Virus record (IMG/VR): IMGVR_UViG_3300023174_000023
Location: 1 to 28,961 of that record
DNA from: a virus
Direction: 5' to 3' (one strand)
Length of the DNA stretch: 28,961 nucleotides
A program made the position numbers and the translations under genes. This document shows, in pieces, positions 5,905-28,961 of the stretch (positions within the stretch are counted from its first letter, which is position 1; each line of letters starts with the position of its first letter). Below the pieces are notes generated by a model. That model was not told the DNA's origin and searched no databases. It was given only the letters and a program-made list of their open reading frames with translations.

Positions 5905-6077
5905 TACTCCTCCATCCACCTAAGTGGTCCAGTGATTAGCCAGATCAGCGTCAGTCCGCCGAACAGCGTCGCCATTGTGGACTGCGTGTCGCCCTCTGGC
6001 AAAACAACAACGGCGAAGAGCAGACCGAGAATGGTCCAGGCTCCGCCTACGAGATCAACGATGATGCGCTTGATCAC
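5904..6077 (-). CDS. Two-helix membrane protein, holin candidate (57 aa)
   Basis: GTG at 6077 overlaps the stop of the PA14 gene (GTGA). The product has a short basic start (MIKRIIVDL), a first transmembrane helix (GGAWTILGLLFAVVVLP), a polar turn (EGDTQS), a second helix (MATLFGGLTLIWLITG) and a charged end (RWMEE). Size, topology and place one gene before the lysin fit a class II holin. Start and stop are coupled to both neighbours. The holin role is inferred from topology and context. Confidence 0.65.
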   Translation of the reverse strand: MIKRIIVDLVGGAWTILGLLFAVVVLPEGDTQSTMATLFGGLTLIWLITGPLRWMEE

Positions 6078-7216
6078 TTGTCTACCTTTCTCGCCGCAGC
6101 CGCAGCGCTTGACGCAGCGGCGACGGCCGCACTTGCAACCTGGCTGATGACGATGGCGACCGCCACCGGTGCAGCCTTCTTCTTCTCGGCAGGTGAGAGA
6201 TCCTTGCCGAGATTGGTGATGGCTTCAATCGCCTTGCTCACCGTCTCAGCGACAGCAGCGACAGCCTCACCAACCACTGCCGCCGTTTGTTCTGCAATGT
6301 TATCTGGCGATGCGCTCGGAGACGGCTCTGGCTCCACGCTTGGAGTTACGGACGGTGAGTCACTAGGTACAGGAGTGGGATCAGGAGAAGCGGACTCAGG
6401 CGCACTAGGTTCTGGCGTAAGGTCAGGCGTGGGCGACGGCTTGGGTGTGGGAGTCGGTGATGGGATCGGCGATGGTTGAACACTTGGCACCTCACTTGGT
6501 GTTGGCTCTACAGATGGTGACGGCTCTGGCGTCGGTGTTGGAGACGGCTCCACGGATGGCGTAGGATCTGGCGATGGAGATTCTGAAGGACTTAGTTCTG
6601 GCGTTGGCTCAACAGATGGCTCTAGGCTTGGCTCTGGTGACGGTGTTGGAGTGGGTTCTGGTAGAGCGCTCGTAGTCAGCCACGCAGCCGGCACGACGCC
6701 GTAGCCAAGCGTTGGTGCGCCGTACCAGAGACGCGCACACGCGCCACCACCCCACTCAAACATCCAGATGTCGAGCGCGTAGGACTGACCTGCGACAAGC
6801 TGCGAGTAGCCCTCATTTGGTCCAGACCAGTGACCGCCGCAGCCGTGAAAGTTCCAGTCATCAATTGTCAGCACGCCATCTAGCGTCATGTACCAGCCAT
6901 CGTCTGACCAGTTGAGGAACTCCCACTGGCCGCTCTCTGGCACGGTGAGCCAGCCTGTGAAGTGGACCATGAAGAAGTTTTGAGGACATCCCTCAGCAGC
7001 AGGTGCGCCACCCCAATCGAAGTCGATCATGGTGACTACGCCTGAGTAGCAGACTGGCTGCTCTGGCTCTTGCTCCCATGGACCGAGACCGAGCATGACG
7101 CCGTCATAGACCGTCATCGTCACGCCCTGCTGTGGCACATCCTCAGCGCGCACGATGGGCAGGAAGATGAGCGTGCTGAAGACGATCCCTAACAGTGGGA
7201 ACGCGGCGCGCTTCAC
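6074..7216 (-). CDS. Exported PA14-domain protein with Pro-Ser-Glu stalk and C-terminal hydrophobic anchor
   Basis: 380 aa from a GTG at 7216 (GTGA overlap). Residues 1-25 form a clear signal peptide (MKRAAFPLLGIVFSTLIFLP, cleavage after VRA). Residues 30-180 are a PA14 domain: YSGVVTMIDFDWG, FFMVHFTGWLTVPESG, WEFLNWSDDGWYMTLDG and YALDIWMFEWGGGACARLWY. PA14 domains often bind sugars. Residues 183-305 are a long Pro/Ser/Thr/Glu stalk of repeated P-x-P-S units. The C-terminus has a helical region and an Ala/Val-rich hydrophobic segment (VAVAIVISQVASAAVAAASS) ending in basic residues. This predicts a protein displayed on the host cell surface and held in the membrane, perhaps for superinfection exclusion or lysis. 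A virion-attached adhesin is an alternative. Confidence 0.75.
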   Translation of the reverse strand: MKRAAFPLLGIVFSTLIFLPIVRAEDVPQQGVTMTVYDGVMLGLGPWEQEPEQPVCYSGVVTMIDFDWGGAPAAEGCPQNFFMVHFTGWLTVPESGQWEFLNWSDDGWYMTLDGVLTIDDWNFHGCGGHWSGPNEGYSQLVAGQSYALDIWMFEWGGGACARLWYGAPTLGYGVVPAAWLTTSALPEPTPTPSPEPSLEPSVEPTPELSPSESPSPDPTPSVEPSPTPTPEPSPSVEPTPSEVPSVQPSPIPSPTPTPKPSPTPDLTPEPSAPESASPDPTPVPSDSPSVTPSVEPEPSPSASPDNIAEQTAAVVGEAVAAVAETVSKAIEAITNLGKDLSPAEKKKAAPVAVAIVISQVASAAVAAASSAAAAARKVDK

Positions 7217-17671: not shown

Positions 17672-18814
17672 TTAGGCGTTCTTGAGGAACTTGACAGCCG
17701 AAGGCTGCGCAAGGCCAGTCGCGCCACGGACCTGAACCTTGTACGAAACAAGGCCAAGGTTCCACGCGTACTCGCGGCTCGCCTCAACAGTCACGCCACC
17801 CACGATGACACTCTTGATCTGGTTGAGGTCACCGAAGAGCACAGCCTTGACACCGGTCGCAGGAGCGGCGATGCCAGGGGCGGTGTAGACAGGCTTGCCA
17901 AGAAGGCGATCAACGCCACCCTGACCACCTGGCTGGAAGAGCGGAAGGCTGCTCGACGTTGTGCCAAGGATCTGCCCAAGAGCGGTGTCGCTCATGAGGA
18001 AGCCTGACTTCGGCGCGTTGCGGTACTGCTGCTTCACCGAGTACTGAAGAGCAACAAGCTCAGCGTAGGTGAAGGCAACCGTGCCAGCAGCAGTTCCACC
18101 GGTACCAGCAGCGCCAACAACGGCGGTGCTTGCAGCGGAACCGTGAGCAATCGCCATCTCCTGACCAGCGGCTTCGCTGATCATCGCGGCAACGTCAAAC
18201 GCTGCATCGTTGATAAGCTCGTCCGAGACCTGGACAAGAACGGCGTACTTCACAGGGGTCAGGCTCAGAGCCGAACCAGTGAAGTCATCTTCCGTGATCG
18301 TGCCGGCTTCAGCGACTGAACCAGCCGTGGTGCCGAGCGCCGATACCGTTGGGAACTTGATGTTGTTGCCGGTGGCAACGTTCATCACATCCACAACCGC
18401 AGGGTTGATGTATGGGTTGATCTGACCAGCGATGACGTTTACGCGGTTGTAAACGGACACTGGATTACCAAGACCGGTGCTGGTCGTGATGTCGCGATAC
18501 TCAAAGGTATCAACACCACCAACAAGACCGATTGAGCGAAGGCGGTCATTGTCCGAAACGGCCTTAGGAGCCGTCGGAGCAACAACGGCAGCGAACTCGG
18601 CGCGAGCCTCGTCAGCAGCCTTGCGAGCCTCGTCAGAAGCCTTCTCTGCGCGGAGAGCCTCGGCGATAACGCCAGCCTCAGCGACGAGCTTCTCGAAGCG
18701 CGCCTTATCTTCACCCTCAAGGGCGATTCCCTTGTCGGCTGCCTCTACGGCAATGCCGCGAGCCTCAACCAACAGATGCGCTCGCTTGTCAGCAAGCTTT
18801 GCGATGTCAGACAT
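17672..18814 (-). CDS. Major capsid protein (HK97 fold)
   Basis: 380 aa. Residues 1-85 are a helical, charged scaffold-like delta domain (DKARFEKLVAEAGVIAEALR, DEARKAADEARAEFAAVV) expected to be removed by the protease encoded upstream. The rest has the HK97 pattern: TGLGNPVSVYNRVN, NIKFPTVSALGTTAGSVAEA, KYAVLVQVSDELINDAAF (P-domain), AELVALQYSVKQQYRNAPKS and the ending AVKFLKNA. ATG at 18814 follows AAAGGA. The 112-base gap upstream is the largest in the head block and may hold a promoter, though I see no convincing boxes. Confidence 0.92.
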   Translation of the reverse strand: MSDIAKLADKRAHLLVEARGIAVEAADKGIALEGEDKARFEKLVAEAGVIAEALRAEKASDEARKAADEARAEFAAVVAPTAPKAVSDNDRLRSIGLVGGVDTFEYRDITTSTGLGNPVSVYNRVNVIAGQINPYINPAVVDVMNVATGNNIKFPTVSALGTTAGSVAEAGTITEDDFTGSALSLTPVKYAVLVQVSDELINDAAFDVAAMISEAAGQEMAIAHGSAASTAVVGAAGTGGTAAGTVAFTYAELVALQYSVKQQYRNAPKSGFLMSDTALGQILGTTSSSLPLFQPGGQGGVDRLLGKPVYTAPGIAAPATGVKAVLFGDLNQIKSVIVGGVTVEASREYAWNLGLVSYKVQVRGATGLAQPSAVKFLKNA

Positions 18815-18926: not shown

Positions 18927-20405
18927 CTAGAGTGCGTCACCTTCTGCCGCTTCAACAGCAAGCATTGCCGCAGCGACGGATGGGTCAATGACCTTCTCCT
19001 GCTTTGGCGCGAGCTTCGAGCGGACAGCATCAATGACAGCCACTTCCTCGGTGGACAGTTCGCGTCCAGCCTTGACTGCTTCAAGTGTGGCGACCAGCGC
19101 CTCAGCCTCTACGCCGATCTTTGGCGCAGTGACTTGGCGGATCGCCGTGAGACCAAGGGTCGCAGGATAGGCAGGAGTCTGGCCACCGGCGGCAAGGATG
19201 CTCACCTCGAAGAGGTTGGCTTCCTTGATCGTGCGCTGATTGCCATCCCATGCATCCTGCACCTTCTGGAATCCGAATGACCAGCCTGCGGCTTCACTCT
19301 CGTGCGTCAGCATCGAGATCACCTTGGCTGCGTCTGGATCGGCTGGATCAAGTTTCGCCTCAACGCGAAGACCAGTCTCGTCCTCAGTCAGCGTTAGGCG
19401 GCCACTCTTGGTCGTTGCCAGAGCGCGTTGCTCGTCATGACCGAAGAGGAAGGCGATGATCTTCTGCCCTGCGGATGCGCGTGAGAGTGAGCGCTTGAAT
19501 GCGCCAGGAGCGATGCGCTCCTCGAATGGAAGACCCTGCGAAGGGCTGTTCCATACGCTGGCATATCCGGTCACGGTGCGCTGACCGTTAGCGTCAGCCT
19601 CTCCGAGTCGGAACTCGCCAATCGGCAGTGAGCGAACTTCTTTCTCTTTCACGTCAACAATCTCCCTATCTTCAGATGCGATGAGACGATCTGCCCATGA
19701 GAGTACGCGATCAGTTGCTTCTGGATCAGTTGTTTCCACACCCCACAGGAAGCCTGCGACGGCACCTGGTCCAGGGAAGTCTTCGTTGTTTGCATCGCTG
19801 TTTTGTGGCACGCCTTCCCAATCGCCACGATGACGGCGAATCCATGCGGCCATGCGTACCAACTTCTCGGTCTCAACGCGACCGGCTGCGAGTTCTCGCG
19901 CCTCTGTGATTGTCTCTGGCTGCAAGCCATCGCCTGCAAGACCGTCCTCTACGAATGCCAATCCGCGAGCTGCGGCATTGCGCACATAGTCAGGAACGTC
20001 ATAGACGGCGCGCTCCTCTTCGGCGAGATACTCGTCAGGCGTGTAGGCATCAAGACCGAGACCGCGAGCCATCTCTCGAACGGCTGCGTCATTGTCAATG
20101 GCGTACTCCAACTCGTCGCCGTACTGCTCCTTTAGGAGACCGTACTTGTACTCCTTGAATGCCAAGCCGGTTGCGAAGGCGCTGCCCTCAAAGTCATTGA
20201 GGTGAACCTCTTCAACGCCAGCGACCTTGTTCTCTTGCAGCCATGCGCGCGTCTCTTGGAGTCGATCAATCTTGCGAGCAGAGACGATGATGATCTGCTT
20301 ATCGCCAGACATAACCTCTTCGTTCAGCGCATCGATTAGCGGCTGGTTTGGCTGCTCGTTCTCAAGGATGAGTGTGCCGTCCAGATCTACGATGACGTAG
20401 CTCAC
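18927..20405 (-). CDS. HAD-phosphatase / helical domain / HK97-type prohead protease fusion
   Basis: 492 aa from a GTG at 20405 (GTGA overlap with portal). Residues 1-115 form a small HAD hydrolase: DLDGT at 7-11 (nucleophile D7 and D9), SAR at 42-44 and IDND at 103-106, so the active site looks intact and resembles the polynucleotide-kinase-phosphatase branch. Residues 137-245 match a domain seen ahead of some phage proteases (VRNAAARGLAFVEDG, TEKLVRMAAWIRRH, AGFLWGVE). Residues 258-420 are an S78-type prohead protease: RTVTGYASVW, FEERIAPGAF, FGHDEQRALA (H323) and GWSFGFQ (S376). The protease trims capsid scaffold. The HAD role in heads is unknown. Confidence 0.85.
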   Translation of the reverse strand: MSYVIVDLDGTLILENEQPNQPLIDALNEEVMSGDKQIIIVSARKIDRLQETRAWLQENKVAGVEEVHLNDFEGSAFATGLAFKEYKYGLLKEQYGDELEYAIDNDAAVREMARGLGLDAYTPDEYLAEEERAVYDVPDYVRNAAARGLAFVEDGLAGDGLQPETITEARELAAGRVETEKLVRMAAWIRRHRGDWEGVPQNSDANNEDFPGPGAVAGFLWGVETTDPEATDRVLSWADRLIASEDREIVDVKEKEVRSLPIGEFRLGEADANGQRTVTGYASVWNSPSQGLPFEERIAPGAFKRSLSRASAGQKIIAFLFGHDEQRALATTKSGRLTLTEDETGLRVEAKLDPADPDAAKVISMLTHESEAAGWSFGFQKVQDAWDGNQRTIKEANLFEVSILAAGGQTPAYPATLGLTAIRQVTAPKIGVEAEALVATLEAVKAGRELSTEEVAVIDAVRSKLAPKQEKVIDPSVAAAMLAVEAAEGDAL

Positions 20406-21580
20406 GCGTTTGGCTCCTTGCCTACGGTGCCGATATTGAGCGGCTTCCAGAACTCATTGCCACCGGCAGGCAGCGGCGCTCGGTCTTCCAGTGCGCGGAC
20501 TTCGTCAAGACTCAGGAAGCCGTTGTTCAGTGCCACGCTGTAGGCGTCGTAGCGCTCTTTGGTCGTAGGTCGAAGCAGGCCGTCTAGGTTGAACTTGACG
20601 AACGTCGTGTTGCCAACGATCAGGCGCTGAAGCCCTGCCTCAATGCGAGCGATGAGCGGCCCAAGTCCAAGACGCAGCCACTCAATGCTGATTACCTCAA
20701 CGCTGCTGTATGAGGTGTTGCCACCTGGATACTGCATGAGGTGAAGCGGCACGCCATAGATGCGAGCGATGGACTCAACGCCCCAATGCATCGTCTCAAC
20801 GAGCTGCAAGTCGGAGATCTTCGCGCTCATCTGCTGGAAGTCTGCACCACCGGTAAGGACGGCAACCTTGTGCATCTTCTCTACGCCTTCGTGGCGTCGG
20901 CTGAATGATGCGCGGAGTGAGTCTGCAACGTCCTGCGTCAACTCGCCTGGCACCTTGATGACAGCGCTTGGAGCAGCGCCGTTCTCGTAGAACTTCGCGC
21001 TAAACAACTGCGTCGCAGATGCGAGACCAAGCGTCGTGCGGTGATGCTCAACAGGCGACATACCGCGCTGATGACCAGCGGTAGCGAAGAGCGGAATATG
21101 CACCATCTTGTCTGGACCAACGGTGAATGCACCAGCGTCAGTCGTGACGGTATAGAGCGGCACGCCCTTCTCGTCCACCTTGATATCCACTTTCTGCGGA
21201 TCAAGGACGCGCGTCTCAACGACGTCGCCAAGTCGGTCGGTGAGGAACAGGACGAACGCGTTACCGTCTAGGAGCAGTGAGGATGTCAATGCATGACGGA
21301 ACTGGAAGCCTGTGTAGTTTGGGTTTGCAGGGATAGGCTGGTCAACCCATGATGGTCGTGTGACTGGACGTCGAACGCCACGGTCGCGAATATATGCGCC
21401 AACTGGCAGGCTAGCAACAGTGTCAGCGTACAGCTTGACGGCCGCATACACAGCGCCAATCGATGTGGCGTTCTGCTGATTGATTGGAACACCGGCGGAC
21501 GAATCTGCTGGCTTATCGCTGAACCATTGTGCGCCAGAGATGGTGCGCTGCTCAGAGAGCAGGCGGCGAAGGATGCTCAC
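20402..21580 (-). CDS. Portal protein (HK97 family)
   Basis: 392 aa, with the HK97-type portal pattern: ATSIGAVYAAVKLYADTVAS (residues 35-54), HALTSSLLLDGNAFVLFL, PVEHHRTTLGLASATQLF, SAKFYENGAAPSAVIKVPG, ARIYGVPLHLMQYPGGNTSY and EWLRLGLGPLIARIEAGLQ. It forms the dodecameric vertex ring used for packaging and tail attachment. GTG at 21580 overlaps the stop of the 45-aa gene. It is followed by the protease fusion and capsid gene, the usual HK97 order. Confidence 0.92.
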   Translation of the reverse strand: MSILRRLLSEQRTISGAQWFSDKPADSSAGVPINQQNATSIGAVYAAVKLYADTVASLPVGAYIRDRGVRRPVTRPSWVDQPIPANPNYTGFQFRHALTSSLLLDGNAFVLFLTDRLGDVVETRVLDPQKVDIKVDEKGVPLYTVTTDAGAFTVGPDKMVHIPLFATAGHQRGMSPVEHHRTTLGLASATQLFSAKFYENGAAPSAVIKVPGELTQDVADSLRASFSRRHEGVEKMHKVAVLTGGADFQQMSAKISDLQLVETMHWGVESIARIYGVPLHLMQYPGGNTSYSSVEVISIEWLRLGLGPLIARIEAGLQRLIVGNTTFVKFNLDGLLRPTTKERYDAYSVALNNGFLSLDEVRALEDRAPLPAGGNEFWKPLNIGTVGKEPNA

Positions 21581-21714
21581 TTACGATCTCCTAGCGTGTA
21601 GCCGAGCGCAGCAATGGCTACGCCTGTGGCAATCAATGCGACTGGTACTGAGAATAGCGCCACACCTGCGATGATAAGTACGCCACCCACAATCTCAAGA
21701 ATATTGCTGATCAT
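21577..21714 (-). CDS. 45-aa two-helix membrane protein between terminase and portal
   Basis: ATG at 21714 overlaps the terminase stop (ATGA) and its own stop overlaps the portal start (GTGA). The product begins MISNILEIVGGVLIIAGVAL and continues with a second hydrophobic run (VPVALIATGVAIAALGYTLG) ending DRK. It must be real to explain the otherwise empty 130 bases in a fully packed region. A membrane protein inside the packaging cluster is unusual; function unknown. Confidence 0.75.
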   Translation of the reverse strand: MISNILEIVGGVLIIAGVALFSVPVALIATGVAIAALGYTLGDRK

Positions 21715-23303
21715 AGATTCACCCACTCCACTTTCGCTATCTGTTTTGGTTCAACCTGCAAGAACTTTACACCCTGATACGCCACGACGGCAGAGACGGC
21801 CGCGTCAATGCGGTCAGGCGACGCCTTGTACGCCTTGGTCAAGACCTGCCCATAGCGCGTCAGGCGCGTATGCACATTGCTGATATGGCGAGCCAAGAGT
21901 GGATTGCCGTCATGCCGCAGCCCTTCGCCAGTCGCTACCGCCGTGAAGAATCGGTCTACGGCTGGACCCATGCGCTCAATCGTTGCGGTGGGGAAGACCG
22001 CCACGCGCTTGCCATACCGGCGCGTCCACTCCTCGATCTCGGAAGCCCACCCTGGAGGGTCGCAGAACAGCGTGGCGTTGTAGGTAGTCATGATCTGCTC
22101 AACGACGGCGTCCACCTCAGTGCGCGGCACCGTCCAGTCAGGGTCTCGGTTGGTGTCGGATTTCTCCCATGCCTTGATGAGGAAGACATAGCCGTCCATC
22201 GTGCTGCCAGTCAGCACCGTAGCGTCGCGTGCATACGAGCCGTCAAAGCCCACGCTGATCTGCTCGCCTGGCACGAGTACGCGGTCAGGATCTTTGAGTC
22301 GCGCCCATGCCTCTGCGCCAATCCAGCGGTCTGGCGGCTGCACGAAGCGGTTCAGGTGATAGCGCTGCCACTCATGCATCGGCACCTCGTTGGCGCGTGC
22401 GAGCAGTCGATCAATGTCTACGAATGCCGGAGCGCTCGGATTCGCCTGTTCAAGCGCAGCCCTGCGGCCAGCGTCAGTCTCTAGGTCGTGGCTATCAGCA
22501 GCAGCCCACCACTCGACTAGGAAGCCAGGGTCGGAGACTTCGCCAGAGGCGATCTTCTTTGCGTAGGTCAGCATCCGGCCGAGCAGCGTGTTCTCGTCGG
22601 AGCCTGCGGTCGAGATGTTCAACTCCAGCGCCTCGGCTCGCTTGGCAAGTGAGTTAGAGAGCACGAGATGCACGCGCTCTTTGTTGCCTGTCCACTCGTG
22701 CAGCTCGTCCGCAATGAAACAAGTAGGGCGTCCACCGTCATTGGTACCGGCTGCAGCAGCCACGCGGTACATACGCCCTGGACGATCTTTGATCAGGATC
22801 TCGGTGTCGTAGACCTCGAAGTGCGCAGCGAGTGGACCCTGCGTGAGCATGATCCGTGCGGTGCCAAAGAGCAGGTCAGCCTGCTCGAATGATGCGGCTG
22901 CGATGGGGATATTTGGCGAGCGTGGAGCCTTTGGTCCAGCCAACTCAGCCAAGGCAATAGCAGCGAGCAGCTCGGTCTTGCCGTTGCCCTTTGGTGTGCC
23001 AAGTAGCGCGCGCTTGACGATGCGTCGTTCGGTTTTGGCATCGTACTCGTACAGACGCCAGATGTAGGCGCGCTGCCACGGCTCCAGTCGAAACGGTTCG
23101 CCGAACTTGTCGCCCTCACCGTGGACTAGGTTCGTCTCAATCCACCGGCAGACCAGCCCACCCCACGACGGTGGAGGTGGACTACTGATCGGCGACGAGT
23201 AGAGCGGCCTCTTCGGTGACGCCTTCGGCGTCGCCTTGATCAACGTAGCGTGGGTCTTCCTCGCTGTTGGCTTCGGCGACTGCGGCGTTAGCGATTCTGG
23301 CAT
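21711..23303 (-). CDS. Terminase large subunit
   Basis: 530 aa. Walker A GTPKGNGKT at 102-110, Walker B CFIADE at 195-200 with ELHEW following, then the coupling motif STAGSDENT (231-239). The nuclease half has GFDGS at 352-356, FCDPPGW at 413-419 and a C-terminal SPDRIDAAVSAVVA. ATPase and nuclease are both complete. The ATG at 23303 is supported by GGAGG six bases upstream, which gives a Pro/Lys/Thr-rich, probably disordered, N-terminus of about 50 residues encoded over the last 122 bases of the small subunit gene in another frame. Confidence 0.92.
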   Translation of the reverse strand: MPESLTPQSPKPTARKTHATLIKATPKASPKRPLYSSPISSPPPPSWGGLVCRWIETNLVHGEGDKFGEPFRLEPWQRAYIWRLYEYDAKTERRIVKRALLGTPKGNGKTELLAAIALAELAGPKAPRSPNIPIAAASFEQADLLFGTARIMLTQGPLAAHFEVYDTEILIKDRPGRMYRVAAAAGTNDGGRPTCFIADELHEWTGNKERVHLVLSNSLAKRAEALELNISTAGSDENTLLGRMLTYAKKIASGEVSDPGFLVEWWAAADSHDLETDAGRRAALEQANPSAPAFVDIDRLLARANEVPMHEWQRYHLNRFVQPPDRWIGAEAWARLKDPDRVLVPGEQISVGFDGSYARDATVLTGSTMDGYVFLIKAWEKSDTNRDPDWTVPRTEVDAVVEQIMTTYNATLFCDPPGWASEIEEWTRRYGKRVAVFPTATIERMGPAVDRFFTAVATGEGLRHDGNPLLARHISNVHTRLTRYGQVLTKAYKASPDRIDAAVSAVVAYQGVKFLQVEPKQIAKVEWVNL

Positions 23304-24018: not shown

Positions 24019-24217
24019 GAGGAGTCCAGTCTGCGCCAGCCCAATACGGCTTGCCTGCCTTGCGCTCTTCAGTGCGGCGGCAGTAACTGCACTCGCCGCA
24101 GGTTGGAGCGTCAGGCACGATGGCGCGTTGACAGAGTCTGCACCACAGCACACGGCTGCACGGTCTGCGCTTCCCTAGTCCACGGATGTCGCCAGGCTTG
24201 CAGAGATGCTCGATCAC
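24005..24217 (-). CDS. 70-aa zinc-ribbon protein
   Basis: GTG at 24217 overlaps the glycosyltransferase stop (GTGA). The sequence has two Cys clusters, WCRLC at 25-29 and CGECSYC at 40-46, in a basic context (GLGKRRPCSR; RRTEERKAGK). It likely binds one zinc. Its last 14 bases overlap the FmdB-like gene. It is another member of the small zinc-protein set; function unknown. Confidence 0.7.
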   Translation of the reverse strand: MIEHLCKPGDIRGLGKRRPCSRVLWCRLCQRAIVPDAPTCGECSYCRRTEERKAGKPYWAGADWTPHAAL

Positions 24218-25425
24218 TTCTTGGCTCGGCGCGCGGCGCGGTTCATAAGCTGTGGCTCTGGCTGCTGGATGCCGAGCCGGATCTTGCCTGACTGGACCGA
24301 CTGGAAGAGCGGCTCCCACTTCTCCTTGTAAACCGTGTCAGCGTCGTACTCGTTCATCGTTGCGGCTAGGCGTGCGCGGTCAACCGTGCCAGCCTGCGTG
24401 TTCCTGTAGTTCTCGCAGAGCGCTTGGTAGATCTCGATCACATTAGGAATCATTGCGAACGACTCGTGGAAGTCCTCCCAATGAACCTGACCATTAACGA
24501 CGTGACCGTAGTCACGCACAAGCTCTGGCTGCGCGGTGTGATTGCTAACGATGACTGGAGTGCCGACGGCCTGAGCCTCAATGACTGGTAGCCCAAAGCC
24601 CTCAGATCGAGAGGCTAGGAGCAGCACATCGGCGGAGCGCATTAGTCGAGCAACGGTCTCTGCCGGTACGCCTGCACGCATCTGCACAGAGTTCACCCAT
24701 CGGATGCGATCCTCTGGAGCGTTGAGCGACTTCAGAAGTGGGATCAAGTTGATGCCGTCCATATGGCCCCATTTGTCGGTGTGCAGGTACAGGTAGGCAT
24801 CTTCGTGACCAATCGCAAAGATGGTCCAGGCGTGGAGCATCTCAGGGAACGACTTGCGCTTTCCCTTGTTCATTGCGGTGATGATCGTGAGGTGCGCGTC
24901 TTCTGGCACTCGGAGAGTCTCGCGCATTGGCTCTACGCCGCTGTGCCAGATTGCGCGGTCGATGGCGTGAGGAATGTAGGTCAAGCGGTCTCGTGGTACG
25001 CCAGCCTCCAACAGAAGCTGCTCGCCATTCTTGCTCATGGCCACGATGTACTTGTTGCCACCCTTGATGCACCACTCCGCCACGCGGCGTGGCACAGGCG
25101 AGTGATCCACCGGCACCCAACAGACGAGCGGCAGGTGATGCCATGCGTCAGCGACGCCAGTCCAGACATCAAAGAGCGTCAAGCCGAAGCCACCATCTCG
25201 CGCAGCCAGCGCGATGTTCTCTGGTCCTGAATCGTTGGCGTACTTGAGCAAGCCCTCTGCGTAGATGTTGATGCCGTTCCACTCCATGTTGACTGGAGCG
25301 CCGTAGTTAGCAGCCACGCTGAAGTCATGACCTGCTTTGAGTGCGCGTAGTCCGAGCTGCGCGATCTGCGTGCCATAGCCGGTCGGTGCCATGGGCGTGT
25401 TAGAGACTGCGACGATCTTTGCCAT
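24214..25425 (-). CDS. GT4-family glycosyltransferase
   Basis: 403 aa with the GT-B fold of retaining GT4 enzymes: N-terminal NTPMAPTGYGTQIAQLGLRA (residues 9-28), a middle VPVDHSPVPRRVAEW and SKNGEQLLLEAGVPRDR, and the C-terminal nucleotide-sugar site ASRSEGFGLPVIEAQAVGTP with the E-x7-E signature (E275 and E283). No membrane segment. ATG follows AGGAGG. It lies just upstream of the packaging genes. It may glycosylate a host surface polymer, a virion protein or modified DNA; the sequence does not decide which. Full length, not a fragment. Confidence 0.85.
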   Translation of the reverse strand: MAKIVAVSNTPMAPTGYGTQIAQLGLRALKAGHDFSVAANYGAPVNMEWNGINIYAEGLLKYANDSGPENIALAARDGGFGLTLFDVWTGVADAWHHLPLVCWVPVDHSPVPRRVAEWCIKGGNKYIVAMSKNGEQLLLEAGVPRDRLTYIPHAIDRAIWHSGVEPMRETLRVPEDAHLTIITAMNKGKRKSFPEMLHAWTIFAIGHEDAYLYLHTDKWGHMDGINLIPLLKSLNAPEDRIRWVNSVQMRAGVPAETVARLMRSADVLLLASRSEGFGLPVIEAQAVGTPVIVSNHTAQPELVRDYGHVVNGQVHWEDFHESFAMIPNVIEIYQALCENYRNTQAGTVDRARLAATMNEYDADTVYKEKWEPLFQSVQSGKIRLGIQQPEPQLMNRAARRAKK

Positions 25426-28163: not shown

Positions 28164-28375
28164 AGGTCACACAGCCCTGACAGCAGCGCCATCCGATCGG
28201 TCGCTAGTTCTACAACCTGCTCAATGGTCTCGCCTTGAAAGGTGAGTTCCGAGCCTGCCGTGTCGATCAGGACAATCGTCCAGATGGCCGGATCGCCAAC
28301 GCGTACTAGGCCGTCGTAGTGATAGCCGAGCTGCGCAGCGCGCGTCTCAAGTTCCGTCAATGCAACGTTGCTCAC
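28160..28375 (-). CDS. Hypothetical early protein (71 aa)
   Basis: GTG at 28375 is chosen over the ATG at 28402: AGGAGG lies six bases before the GTG, which overlaps the dNMP kinase stop (GTGA). The protein reads MSNVALTELETRAAQLGYHY, then DGLVRVGDPAIWTIVLIDTA, GSELTFQGETIEQVVELATD and a short end. The look is that of a small alpha/beta phage protein; no family recognised. Confidence 0.6.
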   Translation of the reverse strand: MSNVALTELETRAAQLGYHYDGLVRVGDPAIWTIVLIDTAGSELTFQGETIEQVVELATDRMALLSGLCDL

Positions 28376-28961
28376 GATTCCTCCTCGTAGGATGACTGCC
28401 ATAGACCGTTATTCACCATGTGCTTCCGCAGGATTGCGTAGGACTGATCGGCTGTCAAGTCTGTCGTGTCGATCTGGAGGTCGTACTCCGTCTGGAGATA
28501 GCCAAACTCGGTCACATCGCTGACGCCCTGAAGGACGCCACGACGCTGTGTGCGCGCCTCGGCCGTCGCATGGACTCGGACGATGACGATGCCAGGGATG
28601 TGATGCCGGAGGTAGTGCGCCTCTAGCGGCAGTCGGACGTCATCCACCACCACAAGCCGATTGGAACTCTTGACCTTGAGGTACTCGGCGTGCCACGCCT
28701 TGATCCAGAACGACGCGTCTAGATCTCGGAGCTGCGCGCCAATGTCTTGCAGGATCTCGCGACCTGAGACCTCAATGTCTAGACCCATGCGGCGCTGGCT
28801 GTACTTCTTGCTCTTGTCGAAGTCCTCTCCGTAGCCAAGAGCCGCCACTGTGCGGATCGTCTCCGCGATTGGCAGGATCGTGTACGGATGCACGCGACGC
28901 TCCTCCAGCATTTGCGCGAGCGTTGACTTACCGGAGCCTTGCGGCCCTACGAATGCGATGT
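28372..28961 (-). CDS. Deoxynucleoside monophosphate kinase (dNMP kinase), lacks only the first 4 bases
   Basis: The complete gene is 197 aa and begins at the GTG found at 131 in the other copy of the overlap. The product has the P-loop GPQGSGKST, then AALGYGEDFDKSKKYSQRRM, LDASFWIKAWHAEYLKV, LVVVDDVRLPLEAHYLR (Walker-B-like strand) and a lid-type region (TEARTQRRGVLQGVS), similar to T4 gp1-type kinases. It phosphorylates dNMPs to dNDPs for phage DNA synthesis. In an early block that also holds a Mom-like enzyme it may serve nucleotide supply only, since there is no sign of a modified-nucleotide pathway. Confidence 0.78.
   Translation of the reverse strand, partial: IAFVGPQGSGKSTLAQMLEERRVHPYTILPIAETIRTVAALGYGEDFDKSKKYSQRRMGLDIEVSGREILQDIGAQLRDLDASFWIKAWHAEYLKVKSSNRLVVVDDVRLPLEAHYLRHHIPGIVIVRVHATAEARTQRRGVLQGVSDVTEFGYLQTEYDLQIDTTDLTADQSYAILRKHMVNNGLWQSSYEEES
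28835..28961. repeat. 127-bp direct terminal repeat, right copy
   Basis: Exact copy of 1-127. Removing one copy gives a 28,834-bp circle in which the dNMP kinase gene is whole. See the left copy for the reasoning. Confidence 0.93.

Follow-up and report, generated by a model that had tools for sequence, protein, structure and literature searches.

In a phage genome fragment, an S78 prohead protease gene carries a HAD phosphatase and a helical phage module in the same reading frame. The gene probably yields two proteins, the full-length fusion and a short protease translated from a start at codon 252. As an explanation of the whole, such a dual-product head gene is given a probability of roughly 0.7. 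Sequence comparisons and structural models establish the fusion itself, an intact HAD active site under selection, a PNKP-like fold, a modular N-terminus, and a conserved internal start; the presence of both products and the role of the long one are predictions built on them.

Gene Architecture and Neighborhood

The window, the whole 28,961-nucleotide stretch that was analyzed, corresponds to the entire IMG/VR virus record IMGVR_UViG_3300023174_000023, which is linear and possibly incomplete. The fusion gene is open for 492 codons, and its GTG start shares four bases with the stop codon of the portal gene. It is located between the portal and HK97-type capsid genes, as is usual for S78 prohead proteases (Table 1). 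The joining of a HAD phosphatase to an S78 protease in one gene, proposed in a preliminary description of this DNA, is real: the Pfam and PHROG matches fall within one open frame, and the same frame was observed on more than 200 contigs, which rules out a chance ORF or an assembly artefact.

Table 1. Coordinates of the fusion gene, its parts, and the neighboring head genes in the window
Feature	Position	Strand	Basis or remark
Large terminase	21711..23303	-	Pfam and PHROG profile matches
Portal protein	20402..21580	-	Directly upstream of the fusion gene; Phage_portal E=1.3e-78
Long-form Shine-Dalgarno, AAGGAG	20414..20419	-	8 nt upstream of GTG 20405-20403; from sequence
Long-form ORF: HAD phosphatase–helical module–S78 prohead protease	18927..20405	-	492 aa
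HAD domain, residues 1-130, PNKP 3'-phosphatase type (predicted)	20016..20405	-	D7, D9, S42, R44, K84, K87, D104; profiles; model
Helical phage module, residues 136-249	19659..20000	-	phrog_2859; helices in full-length model; in most relatives
Internal Shine-Dalgarno, AGGGAG, codons 247-248	19662..19667	-	AGG at codon 247 in 76/76 with Arg
Internal start codon GTG, codon 252	19650..19652	-	ATG/GTG/TTG column
Predicted short form, free S78 protease, residues 252-492 (241 aa)	18927..19652	-	Inferred from internal start
S78 protease domain, residues 255-416	19158..19643	-	Profiles; H323 and S376 invariant
HK97-type major capsid protein	17672..18814	-	Phage_capsid E=4.6e-29, residues 140-378

The protease assignment is clear. 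Residues 270-416 match Peptidase_S78 (PF04586) in Pfam with E=2e-31 (109.8 bits against a cut-off of 21), and the NCBIfam model of the HK97 protease, TIGR01543, scores 85.9 bits (cut-off 59). H323 and S376, singled out in the preliminary description, are found at the positions given there in 82/82 relatives and are also invariant in 39 diverse members. E400, which we take to be the candidate third catalytic residue, is invariant as well, and the protease part has a structural likeness to T4 gp21. The HK97-type major capsid protein, with about 130 residues ahead of its Pfam match, is the likely substrate. At the N-terminus, a Pfam search with the whole protein gave weak HAD-family matches, and residues 2-134 matched polynucleotide kinase in PHROGs. 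The helical domain described earlier could likewise be confirmed by its match to phrog_2859.

Four other genes of the window, all on the minus strand, were noted. A Mom-like DNA modification protein (1037-1618; Pfam Mom 4.5e-40, PHROG 1e-61) suggests, at the level of sequence, that the phage's DNA contains a modified adenine. A deoxynucleoside monophosphate kinase-like gene (28372-28911; PHROG 3.5e-13) is of a kind often linked to modified-base phages. A glycosyltransferase gene (24214-25425) lies upstream of the terminase genes, and a PA14-domain protein with a long proline/serine-rich repeat tail (6074-7216) is possibly a surface-binding protein.

Conservation of the HAD Active Site

D7 and D9, at the places of the nucleophile and acid/base aspartates of DxDGT, are present in all 80 sequences spanning the HAD part, and S42 and R44 (motif II), K84 and K87 (motif III Lys), and D104 in 79 of them. 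In a wider set of 40 diverse HADs, D7, D9, T11, and R44 are invariant and position 42 is either S or T. The motifs had been read earlier as DLDGT, SAR, and IDND. D7, D9, S42, R44, and D104 are placed as proposed, but IDND is not strictly kept: in motif IV, where T4 has the adjacent DD pair of 'AIDDR', the residue following D104 is N in the window and D in other lineages, and D106 is present in 67/80 sequences and replaced by S in 12/80, in lineages with DDS. Median dN/dS was 0.10 for the HAD, 0.13 for the helical module, 0.06 for the protease, and 0.27 for the C-terminus, values which indicate that the HAD is under purifying selection. Together, motifs and dN/dS rule out a degenerate HAD. The intact-looking enzyme of the preliminary description is thus borne out, neither aspartate having been lost in close relatives and the N-terminal part showing no sign of decay among the relatives.

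Probable Specificity of the Phosphatase

Profile and structure searches place polynucleotide kinase-phosphatases (PNKP) first. The HAD part of the window alone matched HAD_PNKP at E=5e-5, its 23.8 bits falling below the Pfam cut-off of 27.6; the same model was matched by 39/40 relatives, the best with E=7e-9. Polynucleotide kinase PHROGs were matched by 40/40 members (1e-11 for the window HAD alone). The HAD model, with a pLDDT of 93.2, is closest to the T4 Pnkp 3'-phosphatase, which ranked first in Foldseek (E=2.5e-6) and in VIA (Z 16.4, 2.0 Å, 118-119 aligned residues). A search of the PDB with the single protein (phmmer) gave no match; with the family profile, Pnkp1 of the bacterial RNA repair complex (1.9e-11) and T4 Pnkp (2.9e-4) were matched. 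In tblastn of a related HAD against cultured phages, all among the matches listed were annotated as polynucleotide kinase. The phage domain shares with the T4 and bacterial enzymes a HAD fold over ∼119 residues at 2.0 Å; D7/D9 lie opposite the point where the T4 domain begins, and the second motif is S-x-R, as in T4 Pnkp. Unlike these enzymes, it lacks a kinase domain, is shorter, and has a helical module and a capsid protease attached to it. From these matches, our best guess is a 3'-phosphatase without kinase. Of the roles suggested earlier, the trimming of DNA 3' phosphates therefore stands as the best guess of substrate, the closest solved relatives being 3'-phosphatase domains; the activity is a prediction.

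Such an enzyme might heal damaged RNA or DNA ends in the cytoplasm (e.g., after the action of a host ribotoxin or nuclease), in which case fusion to a late head gene would serve expression only and nothing would be packaged. The nearest relatives are indeed RNA/DNA repair phosphatases, and among the alternatives considered here this one has the most in its favor, while still being on the unlikely side. Head genes are late and so are unlikely to serve early repair; the 29-kb window, the record of which may be incomplete, showed no ligase; and every fetched HAD of this clade sits on a protease, none being free-standing save where contigs end.

A phosphatase acting on another substrate (nucleotides, sugar phosphates, lipids, or protein) appears somewhat less likely again. 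HAD folds are promiscuous, models of Hydrolase_3, acid phosphatase B, and the lipin-type LNS2 match too, and lipin/Nir2-type phosphatases are next in rank in VIA with Z 14-15 (others Z 13 or lower). PNKP nevertheless comes first in Pfam, PHROGs, Foldseek, VIA, and the profile search of the PDB.

A Predicted Internal Start at Codon 252

Release of the phosphatase by self-cleavage near residues 250-260 had been suggested earlier. Within this stretch, codon 252 is a conserved internal start of translation, preceded in the window by AGGGAG at a spacing of 9 nt. In close relatives, wherever Arg247 is present it is encoded by AGG, a codon that makes up a few percent of arginines elsewhere (150/3028 Arg codons in total, 76 of them at codon 247). 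Codon 248 is GAG in 79/82 close relatives, and codon 252 is ATG in 74 and GTG in 5, the window included.

The same preference extends beyond close relatives. A non-redundant set of 89 members has very different residues around codon 252, and 84 of these have a clear boundary motif. In them, the column of residue 252 contains Leu in 25 (all TTG), Val in 25 (24 GTG), and Met in 22, which is 72/84 in all, against a background in which TTG encodes 18.6% of Leu and GTG 24.9% of Val. The corresponding binomial chances are 6e-19 for TTG and 6e-14 for GTG, values that are overstated because the sequences are related and shared ancestry is ignored. No other Leu- or Val-rich column among 120 scanned behaved like column 252. 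When synonymous diversity was scored for 483 single codons over 100 genes less than 95% identical, codon 1, the known start, had the lowest value and codon 252 the next lowest, with codons 247 and 248 ranking 16th and 25th. A sliding-window view was not clear-cut, the window starting from codon 247 being among the lowest dozen of 484.

Where the column departs from this pattern, the signal is often shifted. Twelve sequences with GCA in column 252 are of the ENSMAREHETR type and have ATG one codon earlier, and in the AEEAERYDV type the Shine-Dalgarno sequence is found in a new register (GAGAGG, 6 nt spacing). Over the whole family, the Shine-Dalgarno test gave a mean of -6.4 versus -4.5 for shuffled sequences, the lowest shuffled mean being -5.4. 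The TTG sub-clade (EGRAKGEAL...) has a weak Shine-Dalgarno, no better than its synonymous shuffles, and in a few members (L075, L219, L220, and L225) the tested stretch lacks a start codon.

In the full-length model, codon 252 falls within a linker (residues 247-252, pLDDT below 50) directly ahead of the first protease strand. The linker is, as modeled, a flexible joint, and the conserved DNA-level feature in it is the start site. Residue 252 also aligns with residue 1 of free proteases annotated in Streptomyces phage Samora and in Halomonas phage QHHSV-1; for Arthrobacter phage Kuleana the correspondence is approximate. These observations, drawn from sequence comparison, indicate that the gene probably yields two proteins, the full HAD-helical-protease and a shorter protease on its own. 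The stoichiometric link between phosphatase and capsid assembly proposed in the preliminary description is not supported: the conserved ribosome-binding site and start predict extra free protease, so that the phosphatase would not be in a fixed 1:1 ratio with it, and the two initiation sites would set the ratio.

A reading in which translation yields the long protein alone, the internal start is a relic of two fused genes, and any release of the protease comes from self-cleavage in the linker is improbable. Self-cleavage is established for HK97-type proteases, and the linker is predicted to be disordered. A relic would decay, yet ATG, GTG, or TTG is kept amid differing residues (EDREIIDM, AEEAERYDV, SVEAKEM, TTQQEENSM, EGRAKGEAL), and in synonymous constraint codon 252 stands behind only the true start.

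Exchange of N-Terminal Modules

A scan of viral contigs gave 231 relatives. Two further scans and another made with the second HAD lineage were added, and profiles were used to type 311 loci in all; one contig may bear several locus identifiers, so the architecture counts are not all independent. HAD-helical-S78 is the commonest arrangement (202 of 311), followed by helical-S78 with another N-terminus (39), HAD-CxxC-helical-S78 (24), CxxC-helical-S78 (16), HAD-S78 (8), KFT (DUF3721)-helical-S78 (6), and HAD-KFT-helical-S78 (3). Additional N-terminal modules include DUF3721, Hva1_TUDOR, DUF5824, and weak matches to DUF2188.

In seven loci (L053, L058, L062, L063, L071, L074, and L079), the HAD is only 43-59% identical to that of the window and the protease 85-98%, a difference that points to module exchange between two HAD lineages with the active site kept. 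As HAD identity falls while the protease stays near-identical, and as other modules replace the HAD, the N-terminus is, by sequence, an exchangeable accessory. This wide variation would fit the HAD and helical parts being structural, scaffold-like elements whose phosphatase activity is irrelevant, a reading made very improbable by the retention of the catalytic residues through both lineage swaps and >50% sequence divergence.

Two of the small modules have recognizable motifs. A cysteine-rich one (CGNC...C...YCAAW; L044, L051, L082, and others) lies between the HAD and the helical module, and is able to substitute for or join the HAD ahead of the protease. In L059, L061, L154, L184, and L217, the N-terminus of the prohead protease bears a DUF3721-type module (KFTTREEA...GCEGAH...MPC), Hva1_TUDOR, or DUF5824. 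Structure matches in BFVD included uncultured phage proteins of 420-733 residues named major capsid or HAD-like (A0A6J5R4A1, A0A6J5PR75, A0A6J5PW45, and A0A6J5R7M5), which suggests that head proteins of other kinds contain some of these modules too. A scan of genome contigs with the full-length alignment gave 42 pattern matches, none of them a relative, and hence no link to a host or prophage emerged; aquatic actinobacteria are the likely hosts of this group of uncultured phages.

Relation to Known Systems

Both enzyme parts of the fusion, HAD phosphatase and S78 protease, belong to known families. With the HK97-family prohead proteases (S78, TIGR01543), the gene shares the invariant H and S, the position between portal and capsid genes, and a score above the TIGR01543 threshold. 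Those proteases are normally free and about 200-250 residues long, whereas here the protease makes up the C-terminal half of a longer product, within which a short form is predicted to be nested.

Among records of cultured phages, this helical module was seen together with the protease in one alone, that of Pontimonas phage phiPsal1 (MG835450), whose prohead protease is 37% identical over 63% and has TTG at the internal start column. It differs in having the cysteine-rich CxxC module in place of the HAD. In this phage, glycosyltransferases directly follow the capsid gene; it was mentioned briefly in a genome paper and is no longer available (PMC6106888). In the viral structure library, A0A6J5R419, an uncultured Caudovirales 'Prohead protease', matched over its full length with 56% identity, so the architecture is already in databases. 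It is annotated as a protease alone, its name giving neither phosphatase nor internal start.

Nested genes of this kind have a precedent in phage lambda, where C and Nu3 share one frame and head-assembly proteins of two lengths arise from two starts. The shorter lambda protein is the scaffold, and the lambda protease is N-terminal; in the present gene, it is the protease that would form the short product. The fusion also resembles the polyvalent phage proteins, which are mosaic, multidomain, and thought to be delivered with DNA (Iyer et al., 2017; PMC5512222); for the present protein, virion delivery is a possibility. The text of that survey makes no mention of HK97 or of a phosphatase and, as far as searched, does not describe the present family. 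No published account of a HAD-protease fusion or of the internal start was found in the open-licence literature. Four features appear to be undescribed: the joining of the two families, its occurrence on many aquatic phage contigs, the exchange of modules at the N-terminus, and the conserved start inside the gene.

Discussion

In the proposed dual-product scheme, initiation at codon 1 would give the long form, a PNKP-type 3'-phosphatase followed by the helical phage module and the S78 prohead protease, and initiation at codon 252 a free protease of ordinary size, fit for normal capsid maturation. Both products would be made. The HAD would act on DNA or RNA ends that bear a 3'-phosphate. As a minority species, the long form may enter the procapsid via its protease half, and a few phosphatases would then be carried into the head, to act on DNA ends there or after ejection; candidate targets are the ends of packaged DNA, ejected DNA, and host nucleic acids. 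Packaging of the HAD into the head is the weakest step of the scheme and is rather doubtful. More tentative still is the view of the protease as a loading device, in which mostly free protease is made and a minority of long form brings exchangeable enzymes into the head, here a 3'-end-healing phosphatase that would repair the packaged genome at its ends or accompany it on delivery.

The two-start reading would explain the unusually long 'prohead proteases' that gene callers report in these phages. If the long form does enter the head, this would be a general way of loading enzymes via the protease, with the dose set by the two start sites.
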